Assembly (NCBI RefSeq): GCF_021412625.1 | Contig: NZ_JAKCFI010000006.1 | Span: 124,001-188,000, forward strand | Direction of reading: 5' to 3' | Source of the DNA: Myxococcus stipitatus | GTDB lineage: Bacteria; Myxococcota; Myxococcia; Myxococcales; Myxococcaceae | Length of the DNA stretch: 64,000 bases | Part shown: positions 11,361 through 22,156 of the stretch, one piece after another | Position numbering within the stretch: the first letter of the stretch is position 1 | How the letters are laid out: each line of letters opens with the position of its first letter | Translations under genes and position numbers: made by a program | The notes under the pieces: generated by a model | What the model was told of the DNA's origin: nothing | The model's database searches: none | The model's input: the letters and a program-made list of their open reading frames with translations, nothing else

Positions 11361-12458
11361 TCACGCCACCACGGTGCGCAGCAGGCGCTCGAACAGCCAG
11401 GGGCTTTTCTCCAGCGCCTTCACCACGGGGCGACGCAGGCGGGGCCTGCGCGCCAGGGTGAGCAGCGCGCGCGTCGTCCAGGAGTACTTGCGGAACACGC
11501 GCTGGAAGGCGCGCTCGTAGGGACGCAGCGTCTCCACGCCCGCGCCCCTCGCCAGGGCGTCCGGCAGCAACGTGCCCAGCGACTCCGCGCAGGCGAAGGC
11601 CAGGGACAGCCCCTCGCCCGTCAGCGCGTCCACGTACCCCGCCGCGTCGCCCACCAGCGCGAAGCGGTCCGCCACCCGCGCGCGCGCCACCCGCGCCAGG
11701 GGGCCCGCGCCGCGCACCTGGGAGTCCGGCGTCATGCCGCGCAGGCGCGCCTCCAGGCGGGGGAAGCGCGACAGCAGCGTGTCGAAGCCCACGCGCCCCG
11801 CCACCCCGCCGTCCTCCCACAGGAAGGCCAGCCCCACGCGCCGCGCGCCCGCGGGCGTCACGTACGCCTCCACCCCGCTGGCGAAGTGGACCTCCACGAA
11901 GGGCGACCACGGCGCCATCCGGAAGTGCTGCCGCAGCCCGAAGCGCCGAGGCCCGTCCGCGTCCACCTCCAGCCCCTCGGCGCGCCGCAACGGCGAACCC
12001 AGCCCGTCCGCCGCCACCAGCATCCGCGCCTCCACGGGCGCGTCCGCGGTCTCCAGCGCCATCCCCTCCACCGTCCGGCGGTGTGACAGCACCTGCGTGC
12101 GCTCGCGCAGCTCCACCCCCACCGCCCGCGCCCGCGCCGCCAGCGCCGAGGCCAGCGCCACGCGCCGCACGCCCAGCCCTCCCGGCTCCGGCAGGCGCCC
12201 CTCCACCGTGCCGCCGTCCTCCTGCACGTAGCGGATGCCCACGAAGGGCGCGCTCTCGTCGCGGTCCAGGTGCGTGAGCACGCCCAGCCGCTCGAGCACC
12301 GCCAGCCCCGGGGGCATCAGCCCCTCGCCGCACGCCTTGTCGGCGGGCAGCGCCGAGCGCTCCAGCACCACCGTGTTCAAGCCGCGCGTGGCGGCCTGGA
12401 TGGCCACCGCCAGCCCCGCGGGGCCGGCCCCCACCACCGCCACGTCGTACCGCTTCAC
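11361..12458 (-). CDS. FAD-dependent oxidoreductase (geranylgeranyl-reductase/PHBH-like) of the type III PKS cluster
   Basis: 365 residues. N-terminal dinucleotide motif VVGAGPAGLA (8-17) with ERS at the end of strand 2, a CGEGLMPPGLAVL motif near 43-55 typical of the geranylgeranyl-reductase branch, and the FAD-binding ALVGDAAGYVDALTGEGLSLAF near 265-285. It probably hydroxylates or reduces the polyketide or its acyl chain. It is the last gene of a five-gene operon and overlaps the stop of the acyl-AMP ligase as ATGA. No signal peptide; cytoplasmic or membrane-peripheral. The C-terminal 35 residues are basic (RRPRLRRPVVKAL), suggesting membrane contact. Confidence 0.87.
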   Translation of the reverse strand: MKRYDVAVVGAGPAGLAVAIQAATRGLNTVVLERSALPADKACGEGLMPPGLAVLERLGVLTHLDRDESAPFVGIRYVQEDGGTVEGRLPEPGGLGVRRVALASALAARARAVGVELRERTQVLSHRRTVEGMALETADAPVEARMLVAADGLGSPLRRAEGLEVDADGPRRFGLRQHFRMAPWSPFVEVHFASGVEAYVTPAGARRVGLAFLWEDGGVAGRVGFDTLLSRFPRLEARLRGMTPDSQVRGAGPLARVARARVADRFALVGDAAGYVDALTGEGLSLAFACAESLGTLLPDALARGAGVETLRPYERAFQRVFRKYSWTTRALLTLARRPRLRRPVVKALEKSPWLFERLLRTVVA

Positions 12459-14209
12459 GGCTCCTGCTCCGCCCGGGCCATGGCCAGCGCGCTCTTCGCC
12501 ATCTCCACCGCCATGCGCACCATGCCCACCTTCTTCGGGGGTGACAGCGTGCCCGCCTGGAAGCGCTGGAGCGCCTCGCGCCGGCGCAGCTTGCCGCTCG
12601 ACGTGCGAGGCAGCGTCCCTGGCTCCAGCACCCGCACCGTGTGCGCGCGCACGCCCGTCGCCGCCAGCACCACCGCGCGGATGCGCTCCTCCAGGGCCTC
12701 CGGCGCCTCCAGGCCCGAGCGCTCGGCGAGGATGAGCAGCGCCTCGTCCGTCTCTCCCTCGGGGACGAAGCCCAGCGCCACCGCGCAGCCGACGCGCACC
12801 CCCTCCACGCCGAGCAGCGGGTCCTCGAACGTCTGCGGGGCGTGGTTGGCGCCCCGGATGATGACCACGTCCTTCGCGCGGCCCGTCAGGTACAGCTCTC
12901 CGTCATCGATGAAGCCCAGGTCCCCCGTGTCCAGCCACCCCTCCGGCGTCAGCGCCCGCCGCGTGGCCGCCTCGTCGCCGAAGTAGCCCGACATCAACGA
13001 GGGCCCCCGCGCGAACACGCGCCCCACGCGCCGCTCCGGCAGCACCGCGCCGTCCGCGTCGCGCACCTCGACCTCGAAGCCCGGCACGGGCGAGCCCACG
13101 CTCACCAGCTCCCGCGAGCCCTCCACCACCACGCCCTCGCGCGCCAGCCGCTCCGGGTCCACCCCCAGCGCGCGAGGCCCCCGCGAGGCCGGCGGGAAGG
13201 TCACCGCGAGCGACGCCTCGGACAGGCCGTAGACGGGGCGCAGCGCGCGCGCCGAGAAGCCCCACTTCTCGAAGCGGTCCGCGAAGCGCCGCAGCGTCTG
13301 GATGGACACCGGCTCCGCGCCGTTGAGCGCGTGCACCCACGACGACAGGTCCACCCCCGCCATCTCCGCGTCCTTCACCCGCTTGAGGCACAGGCCGTAC
13401 GCGAAGTTGGGCGCGGGGGAGATGAAGCCCCGGTGCCGGGACAGCGCGCGCAGCCACAGCGCGGGCCGGGCGAGGAAGGCCTCTGGCGGAATCAACACCA
13501 GGCTGCCCGGGTAGTTGAGCGCGGACATCAGGCAGCCGACCAGCCCCATGTCGTGGTACAGCGGCAGCCAGCTGACGCCCACGCGCGGCGACGTCTCGTC
13601 CAGCGGCATGAGCGCGTGGAGCGCGGCCACCTGCGCCATCAGCGCCGCGTGCGTCAGCGCCACCGGCTTGGGCGCCACCGTCGAACCCGAGGAGAACTGG
13701 ATGAGGCCCAGCGCGTCCGGGCGCACCCGCACCTCGTGCGAGTCGTCCCCTCGCGACACCTCCTCCACCGTGTGACAGCCCAGCCGGGGCCGGGCGCGCT
13801 CCACGCTCGGCCCCAGCAGCAGCCTCACGCGCGCGTCCGTCAACACCACCGCGGCCGTCGTCACCTGGAGCATCCGCGACGTCGCCTGGTGGTACTCCTC
13901 CAGCCGCCCCAGCCGCACCGGCGGATACAACGGCACGGGCACCGCGCCCGCCAGCAGCGCGCCGAAGAACGCGTCCATGAAGCCCGGCGAGGTGGGCAGC
14001 AGCAGCGCCACCCGCTCGCCCGCGCGCACGCCCAGCCGCGCGAGCCCCGCCGCCGTGCGCCGCGCGCGGCGGTACACCTCCGCCCAGGGGAGCACCTCCT
14101 CGCGCTCCGCGGCGTCCACGAACGTCAGCTGGTAGGGGGTGGCGCTCGTCGAGGCGAGCGCCTCGTTCAACGTGGGGTGGAGTACCCGCTGGAGCCTGGG
14201 TCCCTTCAC
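12455..14209 (-). CDS. Fatty-acyl-AMP ligase (FAAL-like), loading enzyme of the type III PKS cluster
   Basis: 584 residues starting at GTG 14207-14209, which overlaps the ACP stop as GTGA; a longer in-frame start would run through the ACP gene and is rejected. Adenylate-forming motifs in order: A3 FSSGSTVAPKP (about 190-200), A4/A5 region WLPLYHDMGLVG and PVYGLSEASLAVTF, TGDLGFIDDGELYLTGR (A7/A8) and the C-terminal lysine motif LPRTSSGKLRRR. WLPLYHDMGL and the overall order match fatty-acyl-AMP ligases, which activate a fatty acid and pass it to an ACP rather than CoA. Here the ACP is the adjacent gene. The last 25 residues (VEMAKSALAMARAEQ) are an extra helix. Confidence 0.88.
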   Translation of the reverse strand: MKGPRLQRVLHPTLNEALASTSATPYQLTFVDAAEREEVLPWAEVYRRARRTAAGLARLGVRAGERVALLLPTSPGFMDAFFGALLAGAVPVPLYPPVRLGRLEEYHQATSRMLQVTTAAVVLTDARVRLLLGPSVERARPRLGCHTVEEVSRGDDSHEVRVRPDALGLIQFSSGSTVAPKPVALTHAALMAQVAALHALMPLDETSPRVGVSWLPLYHDMGLVGCLMSALNYPGSLVLIPPEAFLARPALWLRALSRHRGFISPAPNFAYGLCLKRVKDAEMAGVDLSSWVHALNGAEPVSIQTLRRFADRFEKWGFSARALRPVYGLSEASLAVTFPPASRGPRALGVDPERLAREGVVVEGSRELVSVGSPVPGFEVEVRDADGAVLPERRVGRVFARGPSLMSGYFGDEAATRRALTPEGWLDTGDLGFIDDGELYLTGRAKDVVIIRGANHAPQTFEDPLLGVEGVRVGCAVALGFVPEGETDEALLILAERSGLEAPEALEERIRAVVLAATGVRAHTVRVLEPGTLPRTSSGKLRRREALQRFQAGTLSPPKKVGMVRMAVEMAKSALAMARAEQEP

Positions 14210-14484
14210 GAGCGGGCCTCGGCCGGGACGCGGGCGGACTCCCCCACGCGGCTGGCCACCAGCCGGGTCAGGTCCGCCACCGTCTTCAGCTCCTGCGCGT
14301 CCTCCTCCGACAGGCGGATGCGGAAGCGGTTCTCGAGCCCCACCGCCAGCACCGTCAACCCGAGGCTGTCGAGCTGCAGGTCGCGGAAGAGGTCCTGCTG
14401 GGGGTCCACCGTGCCCTTCCACTCCAGCTCCTCGGTGGCGATGCGACGAATCTCGGCCAGGACCTCCTGCTCGAGCTCAACCAT
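14206..14484 (-). CDS. Acyl carrier protein
   Basis: 92 residues starting MVELEQEVL at ATG 14482-14484. The phosphopantetheine attachment motif LQLDSLGL places Ser40. The rest (LAVGLENRFRIRLSEEDAQELKTVADL) is the standard helix II-IV region of an ACP. Its stop overlaps the ligase start and its start lies inside the 3' end of the methyltransferase gene, so it is translated as part of the coupled operon. It likely carries the fatty acyl starter made by the ligase and delivers it to the type III PKS. A 19-residue N-terminal extension from an upstream ATG is not supported. Confidence 0.92.
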   Translation of the reverse strand: MVELEQEVLAEIRRIATEELEWKGTVDPQQDLFRDLQLDSLGLTVLAVGLENRFRIRLSEEDAQELKTVADLTRLVASRVGESARVPAEARS

Positions 14485-15052
14485 GGGGCACCTCCGGGAT
14501 GAAGCGAGGACGACGGGAGAAGGCGCGCGAGTAGGCCGCACCCAGCGCCGCCTCCTCCGCGCGGATGCGCACGAAGAGCAGCGCCGCGTTGCCCAACGAG
14601 AAGACGACGGCGGTCCACCAGGCGCCGTGGATGAGGGGGACCGCGGCCAGCTCCAGCACCACGGCGACGTAGTTGGGGTGACGCAGGAAGCGGTAGGGGC
14701 CGTGCGTCACCGGCGCCAGGTCCGGCACCACGATGATGCGCGAGTTCCACCGGTCGCCCAGCGTGGCGATGGCCCAGTAGCGCAGCCCCTGCGCCACCAC
14801 CGCCAGGGCCAGGGCCGCCCAGCCCCACGCGCCCGGGAAGGCGCGCTCCAGGAGGAAGACCTCGCCCACGCACGCGACCAGGAAGAGCGTGTGGAAGGCC
14901 ACCATGAAGCGGTAGTGCGCCTGCCCCGACTCCACGCCTCCCCTGGCGAACGCGCGCGCCGCGTTGCGCCGGGAGAGCGCCAGCTCCACCAGGCGCTCCA
15001 GCACCAGCAGGAGCATGTAGCCCAGGAAGACGGCCTGCGTGAGCGTCACCAT
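14477..15052 (-). CDS. ICMT-family (isoprenylcysteine carboxyl methyltransferase-like) membrane methyltransferase
   Basis: 191 residues, four to five hydrophobic segments (about 5-22, 52-70, 75-92, 125-150). The cytosolic methyltransferase signature GPYRFLRHPNYVAVVLE lies near 118-134 and a conserved EEAALGAAY motif near the end. Bacterial ICMT relatives sit beside type III PKS genes (for example bpsB beside bpsA in Bacillus) and O-methylate alkylpyrones or alkylresorcinols. That role fits here by context. It overlaps the PKS gene by 7 bases and the ACP gene by 8, so the operon is translationally coupled. Confidence 0.86.
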   Translation of the reverse strand: MVTLTQAVFLGYMLLLVLERLVELALSRRNAARAFARGGVESGQAHYRFMVAFHTLFLVACVGEVFLLERAFPGAWGWAALALAVVAQGLRYWAIATLGDRWNSRIIVVPDLAPVTHGPYRFLRHPNYVAVVLELAAVPLIHGAWWTAVVFSLGNAALLFVRIRAEEAALGAAYSRAFSRRPRFIPEVPHG

Positions 15053-16131
15053 CGCAGGAGCACCATCTCCGCGCAGAAGCCCGGCCCCAGGGCCATCATC
15101 AGCCCCCAGTCCCCGGGCCGCGCGTTGGCCTTCTCCAGCGTCTCGCCCAGCACGAACAGCACCGACGCCGACGACAGGTTGCCCACCTCCCGCAGCGACT
15201 CCCAGGAGCGCGCCAGCGCCTCCCCCTCCAGCTCCAGCGCCTCCTCGAAGGCCTGCAGCACCCGGGGCCCGCCGGTGTGCGCCACCCAGTGGCGGATGTC
15301 ACTGCGACGCAGGCCGTGCTCCGTCAGGAAGCCCTCCACGTCGCGCAGGATGTGGTCCTTCACCAGCTGCGGCACCTTGGCGGAGAGAATCACCTTGAAG
15401 CCCGAGTCCACCACGTCCCAGCCCATGATGCGCTCGGTGTCCGGGTAGAACACCGACCGGGACGCCATCACCCGCGGCCCCCGGGCGCCGGCCGCCTCCG
15501 CGCCCCGGACCACCGCGCACGCCGCGCCGTCGCCGAAGAGGCCGGAGGCGATGATGTTGGGGATGGACAGGTCCTCGCGCTGCAACGTCAGCGAGCACAG
15601 CTCCGCGGCGACGAGCAGCGCGGTGTGCGTGGGGAACGCGCGCAGGTAGTCCGCCGCGCGCGCCAGCCCCGCCACGCCCGCCACGCACCCCAGCCCGAAG
15701 ATGGGCGTGCGCTTGACGTCCCCGCGCAGGCCCAGCCGGTTCACCAGCCGCGCGTCGATGCTGGGCGTCGCGATGCCCGTCACCGAGACGAAGAAGACAT
15801 GGTCCACGTCCCGCGGCGTCAGCTCCGCCCGCTCCAGCGCCTGGCGCGCCACCTGCTCGCTCAGCGCGGTGGCCTCCCGAATCCAGGCGTCGTTGCGCGC
15901 CTGGAACGTGACCAGCTTGGCGTAGGAGTCGAGCGGCACCGCCAGGTAGCGACCCCTCACCCGGACGCTGCGGTGCAGTTCCTCCAGGCGCTCCACGTTG
16001 AAGTGGCGCGTCGCCCACAGCCCGCGAAAGGCCTCGATGAGCTGTTCCTGGGTGGCGTAGTGGGATGGCAACGCCCGTCCCACCGCGCGGATGAAGGGCA
16101 AGCTTGGGTCCTGGCCAGGGGAACTGTGCAT
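15046..16131 (-). CDS. Type III polyketide synthase (chalcone/stilbene synthase family)
   Basis: 361 residues with the full Cys-His-Asn triad: Cys149 in FGLGCVAGVAG, His285 in WVAHTGGP and Asn318 in GNLSSASVLFVL. The C-terminus ends in the family's GPGFCAEMVLL strand. It would condense an acyl starter with malonyl-CoA units to an alkylpyrone or alkylresorcinol. The neighbouring ligase and ACP suggest that the starter arrives as acyl-ACP instead of acyl-CoA. It is the first gene of the five-gene operon. The ATG at 16129-16131 lacks a strong ribosome-binding site, but the next in-frame starts would remove conserved N-terminal residues. Confidence 0.92.
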   Translation of the reverse strand: MHSSPGQDPSLPFIRAVGRALPSHYATQEQLIEAFRGLWATRHFNVERLEELHRSVRVRGRYLAVPLDSYAKLVTFQARNDAWIREATALSEQVARQALERAELTPRDVDHVFFVSVTGIATPSIDARLVNRLGLRGDVKRTPIFGLGCVAGVAGLARAADYLRAFPTHTALLVAAELCSLTLQREDLSIPNIIASGLFGDGAACAVVRGAEAAGARGPRVMASRSVFYPDTERIMGWDVVDSGFKVILSAKVPQLVKDHILRDVEGFLTEHGLRRSDIRHWVAHTGGPRVLQAFEEALELEGEALARSWESLREVGNLSSASVLFVLGETLEKANARPGDWGLMMALGPGFCAEMVLLRW

Positions 16132-16322: not shown

Positions 16323-17837
16323 TCAAAGCCTGGACATGCCTTGTGCAAGGCCAGCGCGCTCCGCCCGCTCGCGGACGCGCCGCCGCTCCCGCGCGACGAG
16401 CAGCCACGCCAGCAGCAGACTTCCCGGACCACCCGGCGCGGCGGCGCATCCCCCGTCGTCTCCGGGGGGCTCGGGTTGCTCGGGGGAGCCCTGAACGCAG
16501 GGCTCGCCCTTCGCGTCGGCGGTGATGCACAGCCGTCCATAGCGCCCCACGCCCTCGTGGCGGCCATCCACCACCGCGACGATGACGCGCGTGGCGCCCC
16601 GGGCGTCCACGGTGGCGGTGAGGGAGTTCGAGTCCTCCGCGTGGGCCACGTGGAGCACGGCGGTGTCCGTCACGGCGGCCACGAGCAGGTGCAGCTTCGT
16701 GAGGTCCTCCCCGGCATTGGGCTCGTAGCGGGCGAGCACCGCCTCGGCGCCGCCGTCGACCTCGAAGTAGCGCGTGGAGGCGGCCGTCACGCGGACCTCC
16801 GGCTCCTGGGTGGGGAGTGCGCGCGCGGACGTCAACGGCTGCGCGAGGCCACCGGCGCCCGTGTAGCCCTCGCCAGCCTTCGCGCGCGCGCCCGTGTAGA
16901 AGTTCCACCGCGTGAACTCCGCGAAGGCGGTGTCGAAGTCCGCGCCTCGCTGGCGCAGCACGGTGTCCAGCAGCAGGGGCCAGCGCGCCTCCGGGGCGCG
17001 GAGGCTCTCTTCCCACAGGCTGACGAGGGCCGCGTCGCCGAAGCGTTCGGCCAGGAAGAGGAAGAACACGCCCGCGCCGTAGGAGAAGGTCGCGGCGGGG
17101 CTGTCCGCGTCCAGCACGAGGGTGCGGTCGGGGCGGTTGAAGTAGCTGACGGCGAAGTGCTCCAGGTCGTCGAGTTCCGGATTGAAGCGCTCGCTCGCCC
17201 AGACGGCCGTGCCCTCGGAGACGACGCCGCCGAGCCCCGGCCGGTACGCGGCCTGGACGGCGTGGAAGAGCTCGTGGCTGGCGAGGATGTCCACCGCCTC
17301 CTCGTAGGAGGCGTAGCCGTAGCCCGCGAAGTCGTTCTCCTGGACCATGTGCCCGGCGCAGCGGGTGCCATCGGGCTCGCAGGCGTCGAGCCGGAAGGCG
17401 CCGTCGGCGCGGCCTCCGAAGTCGACGAGGTACACGTCGAACAGCCCATCCCCGCCGTTGTCCCCGGCCACCGCCGCGTCCTCCACCGGACGCCGGAAGC
17501 CCAGCTGGGTGTAGAAATCCTCGACGCGGTCATAGGCGCGCGCGACGACCTCCACGGCGTCGGGGACGCCATCACCATCCACGTCGGCCGCGGGCACCGC
17601 GTTTGCCCCCACGCGGGTGAAGTGGACGCGGAAGTGCCCCTCGGGGGACACCACCGACTCCACCACGTCGCCCGGGTCGTAGCGCGGTATCGGCGACGTC
17701 GGCGAGGTCGGACGCCCCTCCGATTGCAGCCCTTCCTCCATCGTCATCGACGACTCGGGAAGCTCGTGTGGCCCGCGCGGGGAGGCGACGGGAGCACAGC
17801 CCAGGGGAAGCAACAGGAGGAGCGTCCGGAGGCTCAT
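16323..17837 (-). CDS. Surface zinc metalloprotease (MXAN_6640-like) with MYXO-CTERM-like tail
   Basis: 504 residues. A short export signal with Cys14 (LLLPLGC) may be a lipobox. After a VDGDGVPDAVE calcium-type loop (about 86-96) comes the zinc site: His188-Glu189-x-x-His192 in SHELFHAV, with Glu208 in SEGTAVWASE as the probable third ligand, a gluzincin-like layout. Residues about 340-450 form a beta-rich domain. The C-terminus (GGCAAAPGGPGSLLL, then RERRR) looks like a MYXO-CTERM anchor: Cys, hydrophobic stretch, arginine cluster. A further 15 residues trail it, which is unusual. Its ATG overlaps the stop of the HmuY-like gene (ATGA), so the two are one unit. Confidence 0.82.
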   Translation of the reverse strand: MSLRTLLLLLPLGCAPVASPRGPHELPESSMTMEEGLQSEGRPTSPTSPIPRYDPGDVVESVVSPEGHFRVHFTRVGANAVPAADVDGDGVPDAVEVVARAYDRVEDFYTQLGFRRPVEDAAVAGDNGGDGLFDVYLVDFGGRADGAFRLDACEPDGTRCAGHMVQENDFAGYGYASYEEAVDILASHELFHAVQAAYRPGLGGVVSEGTAVWASERFNPELDDLEHFAVSYFNRPDRTLVLDADSPAATFSYGAGVFFLFLAERFGDAALVSLWEESLRAPEARWPLLLDTVLRQRGADFDTAFAEFTRWNFYTGARAKAGEGYTGAGGLAQPLTSARALPTQEPEVRVTAASTRYFEVDGGAEAVLARYEPNAGEDLTKLHLLVAAVTDTAVLHVAHAEDSNSLTATVDARGATRVIVAVVDGRHEGVGRYGRLCITADAKGEPCVQGSPEQPEPPGDDGGCAAAPGGPGSLLLAWLLVARERRRVRERAERAGLAQGMSRL

Positions 17838-18688
17838 GGCAGGAACGCCCACTTCACCCGGAACTGGCCGGAGCCGCTGGGCGTCCCCGCCGGGAGCTCG
17901 CCCTCCGTGTTGCAGTGCGTCTGCACCGCGGGCTCGTAGTACGAGACGACCTCCAGCTTCACGTGTCGGCCGTCCGCCAGCTGGAGGATGAACACCTGGC
18001 CCGTCATCGTCAGGCAGCCCTCGTACTGGAAGTAGCCGCCCAACCGCGTGAGCGGCCCGCCCAGGAGGCCATCGTCGATGAAGGTGCACGCGTCGTCGAA
18101 CCAGGCCTCCTTCTCGAACGTCCAGGCGCCGTCGATCGACGTCACCGAGGCGAACGTCGCGCCCTCGGCGGCCTTCGCCACGGAGACGCAGGAGGGGCCG
18201 GAGGTGCCGCTGTTGACGCGCAGCGAGTAGCGACGGAACGCGAGGTCCCACGCCGTGGAGGCGAGCGCCGCCTGGTCATCCACCTGCACCTGCTGGAGGC
18301 CCTGCGACGTGAAGCGCACGTAGGTATAGGACATCGTTGGCGACTGGCCGCCAGCGCGCGCGTCCACGTACGAGAGGAACTCGCCGCTGGTCGTGCCCTC
18401 CTCGCGCATGGTGCCCGTGGACACCACCGTCAGCAGGTCGAGCGTGTCGATGCCCTGCTCCTTGCAAGTGACGTCGACGGGGTCACACGTCCGCGCGCCG
18501 GCGTCCGGCTCCGTCCCCGCGTCCGTCCCGCCATCCGTCTGCGTCCCGGAGTCCGGAATCGGGTCGGTGGGCTCGTCATCGTCCCCACAGGCCGCCAGCA
18601 GCGCCAGCGACATGGCCACCGCGGCCAGGACCCACAGGCCCTGGTGCCCCGCGCGCCTCGGCATCGTCTCGTCGGACTGAATCATCAT
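17834..18688 (-). CDS. HmuY-family heme-binding lipoprotein
   Basis: 284 residues. The signal peptide ends at lipobox ALLAACG (Cys34), followed by an Asp/Gly/Thr-rich linker and then a beta-rich domain. The domain carries HmuY hallmarks: SYTYVRFTSQG, STAWDLAFRRYSLRVNSGTSG and FILQLADGRHVKLEVVSYY. HmuY proteins are surface heme-binding lipoproteins; that of Porphyromonas takes heme released by proteases. Start ATG 18686-18688 has a GGGAG 8 bases upstream. About 150 bases upstream lies a Fur-box-like element, and downstream it is coupled to a metalloprotease gene. No TonB-dependent receptor gene lies in the window. Confidence 0.82.
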   Translation of the reverse strand: MMIQSDETMPRRAGHQGLWVLAAVAMSLALLAACGDDDEPTDPIPDSGTQTDGGTDAGTEPDAGARTCDPVDVTCKEQGIDTLDLLTVVSTGTMREEGTTSGEFLSYVDARAGGQSPTMSYTYVRFTSQGLQQVQVDDQAALASTAWDLAFRRYSLRVNSGTSGPSCVSVAKAAEGATFASVTSIDGAWTFEKEAWFDDACTFIDDGLLGGPLTRLGGYFQYEGCLTMTGQVFILQLADGRHVKLEVVSYYEPAVQTHCNTEGELPAGTPSGSGQFRVKWAFLP

Positions 18689-18838
18689 CGTTTCCGCTCC
18701 CTCTCCCTGGGTGGATTGCGTGACTCGGTGCCCGGGCTCACGTCCGGGCGGCGCGGCGGGGATGACGGCCGGGCGCTCGTCGACATGGGGACCTCGCTCC
18801 CGGACACGTCCCTCGCCCGATGAGAGGGCAACTTACTT

Positions 18839-18874
18839 GATAACGATTCTCATTTTCAATATTGAATCATTCTC
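18839..18874 (-). promoter_or_regulatory. Fur box(es) upstream of the HmuY/metalloprotease operon
   Basis: GATAACGATTCTCATTTTC at 18839-18857 matches 15 of 19 positions of the classical Fur consensus. A second, weaker overlapping copy, read on the minus strand as GAGAATGATTCAATATTGA, spans 18856-18874. The AT-rich island stands out sharply from the surrounding DNA. A TTGAAA hexamer between the two on the minus strand could be the -35. The only gene that this region can serve downstream is the HmuY-like gene, so iron repression of the operon is the natural reading. Confidence 0.72.
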
Positions 18875-20346: not shown

Positions 20347-20673
20347 GTGTCGGAAGGACTCCCTTTGCTGGCGCGCAGTATAGGGCCCGCGCGCGCCTTG
20401 TCCGGTTCCACGCCATGACGCCTGGAACCGACCGGGCGCGTCAGCGGCGTGGAGCATCGGACCGGCGGGACACGCGCGCCCCACGCTGTGCAGGGCCCTG
20501 CACGCGAGGCAAGCCCTGGACGGGCCTGGGCCACGGATACCTTTCACGGACTTCCGAGGGAACCCCTGGCGACCGGGGGGGTCCGTCCATGAGGCATGCG
20601 GCTTGCTCTTCCCGCGGAGCATGGTCCCGCCCCTTCCCCCGGTGGCTCCCACCCCGGAGTGGAGACTCTTCAC
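20347..20673. other. Divergent intergenic region, glgC / exported paralog 1
   Basis: 327 bases. The glgC side must hold its promoter, but no clear element was assigned. The plus-strand side carries the inverted repeat and sigma-54-like promoter of the first exported paralog (see 20550-20607). The rest shows nothing recognisable. Confidence 0.5.
20550..20607 (+). promoter_or_regulatory. Sigma-54-like -24/-12 promoter with upstream inverted repeat, copy 1
   Basis: AGGCATGCGGCTTGCT carries GG (20593-20594) and GC (20605-20606) separated by exactly 10 bases, with GGCA and TTGC as in the RpoN consensus. About 36 bases further upstream is TTCC-GAG-GGAA (20552-20562) inside a 16-base block, ACTTCCGAGGGAACCC, which may bind an activator. 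Both elements recur with the same spacing before the second paralog, which is the strongest support for function. The predicted transcript start lies near 20618, 55 bases before the ATG. Confidence 0.65.
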
Positions 20674-21270
20674 ATGAATCGACGTGTCTTCGCGCTGTTC
20701 GCGGTCCTGTTGTTCCTCGGAGCCCCCGGTGTCGTCCGAGCGGAGAGTCGCGCCTTCGAGTTCTCGTCCCGGCGCTCCTCCATGCGACTGCTGGGAGCAC
20801 AGCCCCTGGCGAGGAAGGAGTGGACGACGGCGGACCGCATCCGTGCCTTCGACGCCATGAGACATGCCACCGTCACGAGCACCTCCACCGACCCGGAGAT
20901 CCACACGGATGAATGGCTCGTCCCGCTCATCCTCACCGGCCTGGGCCTCATCGGCGGCGTCTCCCTTTGCGCGGTGATCAACGGGAATGAGAGTGAGTGC
21001 GGAACCATGGTCCTGGCGGGGATAGGGGCCGGGCTGGTCCTGAGCCTGGGCTATCTGTACGTGGCCCATTGCGTGCGGACTTCGGGCTGCGACACCGGCG
21101 ACGAGGTCGACGAGGACTCCGACGCTGGCGCACGCCAGGCTCGCGCGAAGCGCTCCAGGGCCATCAGCGCCCAGCGCTTCCCCCGAGGACCGCGCCTCCC
21201 CCTGGGCCTCGCCCCTTCCATGAGCATCGTCAACGACCAGGCCGTCTTCGGGCTCGGCAGGAGGTTCTGA
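20674..21270 (+). CDS. Exported two-helix protein of unknown function, paralog 1
   Basis: 198 residues starting MNRRVFALF at ATG 20674 (GGAG 9 bases upstream). A cleavable signal peptide ends about residue 23 (GVVRA-ES). The mature part begins [16 protein letters not shown], followed by a [13 protein letters not shown] helix. Two strongly hydrophobic segments follow ([18 protein letters not shown] and a second glycine/leucine-rich one), then a charged Asp/Glu stretch and a basic end finishing [14 protein letters not shown]. No known family was recognised. The next gene is a close paralog in the same orientation. Expression is probably sigma-54 dependent. Confidence 0.7.
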
Positions 21271-21423
21271 AGCGGAGGGAGGGGCACGTTTCACCCCACC
21301 AGGACGCCAGCGCCGCCCGTGCTCGCGGCAATGACATCCATGCCCTGGTGCGAGCACCCGGGCCGCTCCGGGAGTGACATTCCTGTCCGAGTCCAGCGCC
21401 GCGCGCGCACGCGTCGCGTGGAG

Positions 21424-21480
21424 ACTTCCGAGGGAACCCGCTCCCGCCCGCGTTTCCGGCCCCGAGGCATGCGACTTGCT
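21424..21480 (+). promoter_or_regulatory. Sigma-54-like -24/-12 promoter with upstream inverted repeat, copy 2
   Basis: AGGCATGCGACTTGCT has GG at 21466-21467 and GC at 21478-21479, again 10 bases apart. The identical 16-base block ACTTCCGAGGGAACCC (21424-21439) lies upstream at the same distance as in copy 1 (40 versus 41 bases between block starts). Sequence between the two blocks is not conserved, so selection on the two elements is likely. Confidence 0.65.
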
Positions 21481-21556
21481 TTGCCCGTCGCATCCCAGTC
21501 GACGCCACGCTCACCCAGAGGTGGCTCGACGGGGCCCGCACGTGGGGAACCTTCAC

Positions 21557-22156
21557 ATGAATCGACGTGTCTTCGCCCTGGTCGCCGTCCTGCTGTGGCT
21601 CGGAGCGCCCGGCGTCGTCCGGGCGGAGAGTCGCGCCTTCGAGTTCTCGTCCCGGTCCGCGTCCATGCGGCTGTTGGGGAAGCGGTCGGCGAAGCGGCAG
21701 CCCTGGACGACGGCGGACCGCATCCGCGCGCTCGCCTCCACGCGCCACGCCACCACCGTGAGCGACTCCTCCGACACGGAGATACCGGCGCACATCTGGC
21801 TCGTCCCGCTCATCCTCACCGGCGCGGGGCTGGTCACGGGCATCACCGTGTGCGTATCGGGCATGGACGACGGTGACTGTGGCCGTTCGGTGCTGGGCGG
21901 GCTGGCCCTGGGGATGGCGCTGGGCCTGGGCTACCTGCGGCTGGTGGCGTGCCTGGACGCGAACTCGGACGACTCGCTCTGCGAGGACGACGAGGAGGAG
22001 GACTACGGTGCCCGCAAGGCCCGCGCCCGCGCGAAGCTCGCCAAGGCCACGGGCCTCCAGAAGCGCGCCAAGGGACTGCGCCTGCCCATGGGGCTCGCGC
22101 CATCCATGGGGGTCGTCAACGACCAGGCCGTCATCGGGCTCGGCCGGAGCTTCTGA
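21557..22156 (+). CDS. Exported two-helix protein of unknown function, paralog 2
   Basis: 199 residues, start ATG 21557. Its first 40 residues nearly repeat paralog 1 ([20 protein letters not shown], then [10 protein letters not shown]), and both share [25 protein letters not shown] and the C-terminal GLAPSMGVVNDQAVIGLGR. Between the hydrophobic segments the cysteines and an acidic run (DDEEEDY) are kept in style but not in sequence. Clearly a tandem duplication followed by divergence. Function unknown; probably periplasmic or membrane-associated. Ends one base before the convergent modC stop. Confidence 0.7.
   Translation: MNRRVFALVAVLLWLGAPGVVRAESRAFEFSSRSASMRLLGKRSAKRQPWTTADRIRALASTRHATTVSDSSDTEIPAHIWLVPLILTGAGLVTGITVCVSGMDDGDCGRSVLGGLALGMALGLGYLRLVACLDANSDDSLCEDDEEEDYGARKARARAKLAKATGLQKRAKGLRLPMGLAPSMGVVNDQAVIGLGRSF

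Follow-up and report, generated by a model that had tools for sequence, protein, structure and literature searches.

A conserved gene pair of Myxococcus stipitatus and other Myxococcota, encoding a HmuY-like lipoprotein and an M30-like metalloprotease, as a candidate Fur-controlled iron-acquisition unit

The closest described system is that of Porphyromonas gingivalis, in which, according to excerpts of the cited work, heme is freed by proteases and bound by HmuY (PMC10100897). His134 and His166 of HmuY coordinate the heme iron, and R79, Y80, T124 and Y173 surround the heme; the same source, as excerpted, notes HmuY genes in M. xanthus (PMC2671838). In Bacteroides fragilis, BfrB is described as binding heme without iron coordination, with Y89 and Y165 being required, and BfrC, which has the HmuY fold, binds no heme (PMC12106395, in excerpt). 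For M. xanthus, the excerpted predation work on iron deals with siderophores (PMC9738627, PMC11388931), which are under FurA (PMC3986340, PMC11388931). Tan cells, which sequester iron, are reported to show an increase of more than 5-fold in the hemin transport genes MXAN_1316-1321 (PMC3986340). One of these, MXAN_1316, a putative TBDT gene, is upregulated in predation; in the excerpted text of the latter study, Fur boxes are named for MXAN_5023 and MXAN_6911 and not for MXAN_1316 (PMC11388931).

The locus considered here lies in a window of 64,000 nucleotides, the whole stretch of M. stipitatus DNA that was analysed, which belongs to a genome of 10.1 Mb in 47 contigs. A sequence-only reading had described in it an iron-regulated operon for heme piracy, consisting of a HmuY-like lipoprotein gene that overlaps the gene of a secreted metalloprotease, and the boundaries and the overlap that it gave are correct (Table 1). 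A -4 overlap of the two genes recurs in 46 of 57 loci. The further statement that protease and heme binder are fused in one iron-controlled unit holds in the sense of one presumed operon; a fused protein is not encoded.

Table 1. Features of the gene pair and its promoter, in window coordinates
Feature	Position	Strand	Remarks
-35-like TTGAAA	18854..18859	(-)	conserved across 39 aligned upstream regions
Fur box TGAGAATCGTTATCA inside promoter spacer	18838..18852	(-)	
-10-like TAAGTT	18830..18835	(-)	77-82% of 39 regions retain its T, A and final T
HmuY-like lipoprotein gene	17834..18688	(-)	284 aa, lipobox Cys34
PF14064 HmuY domain	17909..18328	(-)	residues 121-260
ATGA stop/start overlap, HmuY-like gene to protease gene	17834..17837	(-)	
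Secreted M30-like zinc metalloprotease (predicted), MXAN_6640 family	16323..17837	(-)	504 aa
NF045524 domain in protease	16758..17627	(-)	residues 71-360
HELFH zinc motif of protease	17262..17276	(-)	H188-H192
MYXO-CTERM-like surface anchor of protease (putative)	16371..16454	(-)	conserved Cys464; 16.8 bits, cut-off 20

Across 195 genomes, 73 protease loci of ten families were collected, 58 of them in the family and 15 elsewhere in the phylum. HmuY lies directly upstream of the protease on the same strand in 65 of these 73 loci (55 in the family and 10 elsewhere; seven families). Another gene stands between the two in three loci (L106, L131, L143), the contig ends before a call can be made in four (L117, L134, L135, L142), and at a single locus, L104, HmuY is missing from the surroundings of the protease. 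The sequence-only reading had named separation of the two genes in relatives as evidence against itself; this was looked for, and adjacency was found instead. Co-occurrence was counted with the NF045524 cut-off for the protease and with alignment A1 at E 1e-20 for the pair-type HmuY, a search in which many genomes had 31 candidates of a longer list scored. The protease exceeds its cut-off in 58 of 96 family-level genomes, and 72 have some match, which is weaker or partial only in 14. Among the matches listed, pair-type HmuY occurs in 59 of the 96 genomes, namely the same 58 and G048, in which a protease fragment lies at a contig end. The matches listed for the remaining 37 include no protease above its cut-off and no pair-type HmuY; 13 of these genomes have weaker protease relatives, and several are incomplete drafts. 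Among the 37 are members of genera g1, g3, g6 and g8, although other genomes of the same genera carry both genes. Of the pair-type HmuY among the matches listed, 57 of 61 are at a protease locus (56 with a protease over the cut-off, including L106, and the one at the G048 fragment); in G091 and G095 the two genes are on different contigs, and G010 and G012 have second pair-type HmuY copies apart from the protease. The HmuY-protease pair is thus a real, conserved two-gene unit.

The promoter ahead of the pair is sigma70-like, and across 39 upstream regions an arrangement TTGAAA-18-TAnnnT brackets the Fur box, the -10-like element of the window being a weak consensus match. The box TGAGAATCGTTATCA has 2 mismatches over 14 scored positions against TGATAATNATTATCA, and a scan of the whole genome with up to 2 mismatches to TGATAATNATTATCA returned 3 places, one of which is the window box, as against 0 matches for the reversed-pattern control. 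The second strong box precedes an operon of TonB receptor, HmuY, HemS, periplasmic binding protein and FecCD (with an ATPase gene recognised by eye), and the third (G000:C5:302926-302940, L128) heads tonB and the gene of a PepSY membrane protein. Exact copies of TGAGAATCGTTATCA number 25 in the 96 related genomes, 21 of them ahead of a HmuY-protease pair and the four others in G040 (one), G042 (two) and G079 (one); the control pattern for this count gave 0 in all 96. A footprint of the 39 upstream regions shows 96% identity in the box and 53% and 51% in its 50-base flanks, with the limit that these regions, taken from related genomes, are not independent samples. None of the random 600-nt windows of the window's locus matched as well as its Fur box; random windows equalled the box in 4 of 38 boxed loci (L069, L073, L087, L088; 2-9% of windows), in which further box-like sites are present. 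Chance was considered as the origin of the Fur box and is ruled out by how few places the genome scan returned, by the empty reversed control and by the footprint.

The distribution of the box is narrower than that of the pair. A box with up to 3 mismatches was found upstream of HmuY within 600 nt in 38 of 57 family loci and within 950 nt in 39. Among the 18 loci without one, six have a site with 3-4 mismatches at the head of a gene run, the best upstream Fur-like site of L085 has 4 mismatches, and 11 are without any good Fur box (genera g4, g13, g14, g15, g19, g24 and g26), one of these, L119, having just 21 nt of upstream sequence. Outside the family, no Fur box was found upstream in 11 of the 12 loci tested, L131 being the sole exception and L137 having 43 nt of upstream sequence for the search. 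In L077, the pair closest to that of the window (79% and 82% identity), the box is 933 nt ahead of the HmuY domain, compared with 356 in the window. The claimed iron switch is supported for the window and the core genera by the conserved box and promoter, a support that does not extend to the boxless loci. Within this scope, that is, the window and the core genera only, the pair is a predicted member of the Fur regulon by its conserved promoter box.

The lipoprotein scores 46.3 bits against Pfam PF14064 (cut-off 27), and a lipobox LLAAC was read from the sequence at residues 30-34, in agreement with the earlier family call. The best PDB match of its structure model (pLDDT 83.9) is the HmuY-heme complex of P. 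gingivalis, 3h8t (Z 16.0, 145 aligned, rmsd 2.6); eight HmuY-like entries range from Z 11.4 to 16.0, the next row having 3.3, and the modelled protein is one that keeps the HmuY core fold. By sequence, its closest solved relatives are B. fragilis BfrB and BfrC. The heme contacts were mapped via sequence alignments only. R153 and Y154 align with R79 and Y80 of P. gingivalis HmuY, R153 being conserved in 57 of 57 pair-type proteins and the Y154 position being occupied by Tyr in 42, Phe in 11 and Ser in 4; the Tyr aligned to BfrB Y89 is replaced by Phe or Ser in 15 of 57. As the alignment stretch over H166 of P. gingivalis HmuY has 0.3 bits, the ligand span was judged instead from its flanking anchors, R153 (R79) and M228, the latter aligning with L175 in a weak stretch of 8.1 bits. 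Residues 154-227 of the window protein, between these anchors, where the counterparts of H134 and H166 would fall, contain no His and no Met. In the same span, His and Met are absent from 29 of the 57 pair-type proteins and occur in scattered columns in the remaining 28, with at most 10 of 57 per column. Y222 (57 of 57), M228 (56 of 57) and H242 (51 of 57) are kept and remain candidates, and H242 or M228 may still serve as ligand because the alignment of the second anchor is weak. As BfrB binds heme without coordinating its iron, binding of a porphyrin by the window protein is plausible. In some frames elsewhere, two to three PF14064 domains occur (G014, G015, G036, G038, G039, G040, G042, G055), for example in G040:C9:271974-273287.

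The genome's hmu operon encodes its own HmuY, a HemS/ChuX protein and a FecCD permease, from which it follows that heme is likely taken up, and several relatives place such genes beside the pair. In six genomes (L063-L065 in g7; L074, L078 and L083 in g3) a TonB-dependent receptor, two HmuY genes and the protease form one run, with a receptor that shares 52-53% identity with its counterpart in the genome's hmu operon, a first HmuY of hmu-type, the pair in last place, and box-like sites with 3-4 mismatches at the run heads. The run of L078 begins with a DUF6607 gene (PF20311, 245.5 bits; L078:2386-3459), whose position behind a Fur-like box may indicate an iron- or heme-related role of DUF6607, a family of unknown function. 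A hmu operon lies downstream of the pair in L088, L092 and partly in L087, and convergent with it in L073; in L119 a receptor and HmuY come after the pair. The supposed link to heme uptake gains from the six runs. The absence of a His/Met ligand pair from the window protein, together with BfrC as a non-binder of the same fold (PMC12106395, in excerpt), gives some weight to an unlikely alternative, namely an iron unit whose HmuY-like protein binds protoporphyrin IX, cobalamin or a ferrisiderophore and whose protease trims the proteins holding that ligand. The Fur box would suit such a unit. Of the receptors in the six runs, the two tested, from L078 and L063, reach more bits against TonB-B12 (188 and 202) than against TonB-hemin (174 and 169), all beneath the cut-offs, which also counts against a simple heme reading of the pair. 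The genome's heme-uptake genes, however, speak against it, as do the full conservation of R153 and the frequent Tyr at position 154.

At a distance from these questions, the window holds two further features, both noted by eye. Downstream of the pair, at 11361-16131 (-), a type III polyketide synthase, a methyltransferase, a carrier-like protein, an acyl-AMP ligase and an FAD oxidoreductase form a row that looks like a small biosynthetic cluster, and at 20596-22156 (+) two adjacent related small genes have a common 10-residue stretch.

The protease reaches 255.4 bits against NCBIfam NF045524, 'MXAN_6640 family putative metalloprotease' (cut-off 140), in agreement with the earlier call of a secreted HExxH metalloprotease. 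HExxH is found in 58 of 58 family rows of the alignment, and H188, E189, H192, E208 and E216 are invariant, E208 being the likely third zinc ligand. A search of PDB sequences gave zero matches up to E 10. The structure model (pLDDT 85.3), in turn, matches best with lugdulysin 7bb8, an M30 zinc peptidase (Z 21.9, 290 aligned), followed by M1-type enzymes at Z 14.8 and lower, and on this model the protease is a gluzincin with an M30/lugdulysin-like fold. Its C-terminus shows the MYXO-CTERM-type layout of Cys motif, TM helix and Arg-rich tail, and all 58 relatives have a Cys aligned to Cys464. The putative anchor agrees in position and cysteine with the earlier claim, but the tail scores beneath the cut-offs of both TIGR03901 (16.8 bits against 20) and TIGR03382 (10.9 against 15.85); at E values up to 0.05, TIGR03901 matches 15 of the 39 members aligned. 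An N-terminal Cys14, present in 38 of 58 with a gap there in 13, makes a second lipid anchor possible.

Clustering of the open frames round the pair recovered the protease in 73 loci of 10 families and HmuY in 69 loci of 9 families, the L104 member of the latter being a frame without HmuY profile match. Two larger neighbour clusters mix overlapping frames, of which 99 of 179 and 86 of 125 lie across the pair itself; besides these, an S8 subtilase forms the one remaining cluster that spans three or more families: it occurs in 13 of 73 loci and seven families (L101, L102, L113, L117, L129, L130, L131, L135, L138, L139, L140, L141, L143), is confirmed by Pfam for two members, and is on the opposite strand upstream of the pair in 11 of the 13. 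In L117, the subtilase stops 41 nt short of where the aligned protease begins and has, by eye, a MYXO-CTERM-like tail. The subtilase bears on the improbable reading that the protease is a processor of its partner, clipping HmuY or the TonB receptor off the membrane, and that foreign hemoproteins are not its target. The tight co-inheritance of the two genes and their coupling would suit an enzyme and its substrate, and in P. gingivalis Kgp is described as freeing HmuY from its lipid anchor (PMC10100897, in excerpt); a recurring second protease, however, would better fit an attack on outside proteins.

Still harder to credit is a general iron-regulated digestive enzyme for which HmuY would serve as lipoprotein anchor, chaperone or inhibitor. 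The pairing and gene overlap would agree with it, and so would six cysteines that are conserved in pair-type HmuY and mostly missing from the hmu-type rows, but the six runs that place the pair after a TonB receptor and a second HmuY point elsewhere, as does the core fold retained in the model. That the two genes are chance neighbours, for which only L104 and the second copies in G010 and G012, clearly apart, could be adduced, is rejected in view of the adjacency across seven families and the co-occurrence.

A co-expressed iron-acquisition unit is well supported by the promoter and gene order, and we consider it probable that, as a whole, the pair is best explained as such a unit, in which the protease opens proteins and the HmuY-like protein takes porphyrin or heme. 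At low iron, Fur would come off the box that separates the -35 element from the -10 element, and both genes would be transcribed together, with translation of the protease presumably coupled to that of the HmuY-like gene via the ATGA overlap. The HmuY-like product would be exported to become an outer-membrane lipoprotein, and the protease would be exported and anchored at the surface via its MYXO-CTERM-like tail, where the M30-like gluzincin may open proteins outside the cell. The HmuY-like protein could then take up released porphyrin or heme and deliver it to the hmu operon's TonB-dependent receptor, which is encoded separately and behind a Fur box of its own, and the unit may serve predation. 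Heme piracy by the pair can only be inferred, because His and Met are absent from the ligand places and BfrC binds no heme. The near-constant pairing behind one iron switch suggests that myxobacteria cut other proteins open to reach heme or iron. More tentatively, and with somewhat less confidence than a probable claim would demand, we propose a dedicated, near-obligate heme-liberating module of the Myxococcota, made up of an M30-like protease and a HmuY variant without His/Met ligands, which would be Fur-controlled in core genera and elsewhere joined by a subtilase or a TonB receptor, and which would strip heme from lysed prey.

If this is true, predators could use the module to take heme out of the proteins of prey that they have lysed. 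Two genes and a promoter can now be named for testing how a bacterial predator gets iron from its prey, the putative metalloprotease family of MXAN_6640 gains a likely physiological setting, and the pair-type HmuY proteins offer a natural series without the known iron ligands.

As to known systems, the component families are known, and the paired HmuY-protease unit is new to the literature searched, in keeping with the earlier statement that no description of such a pair is known. MXAN_6640 has no mention in the main texts of that literature, MXAN_6639 and MXAN_6641 were not found in it, and an operon of a hemophore or HmuY with a protease, Fur or myxobacteria was not among the matches listed by title and abstract opening. 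BfrB and BfrC (HmuY-Bf-2 and -3) of B. fragilis resemble the window protein in ligand positions without His or Met and differ in that a protease partner is not mentioned in the excerpted report (PMC12106395). Lugdulysin, of M30, differs from the window protease with 11% identity. The genome's own hmu operon (cf. MXAN_1316-1321) is alike in its HmuY, Fur box and heme genes and differs in having a receptor and a transporter, a protease not being seen there. The hemoglobin protease Hbp of Escherichia coli joins proteolysis to heme binding, as proposed for the pair, and is a single autotransporter serine protease with a fold unlike those of the pair. Gingipains are cysteine proteases. With HmuY/HmuR and the gingipains Kgp and RgpA, P. 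gingivalis shares an iron-regulated lipoprotein of the HmuY fold and heme-freeing proteases (PMC2671838, PMC10100897, in excerpt), but its gingipains are coded elsewhere and are, as excerpted, not strictly iron- or heme-dependent (PMC10100897), and its HmuY has the His134/His166 iron ligands. A protease and a HmuY-like protein that are coded apart in P. gingivalis would here stand under one switch.
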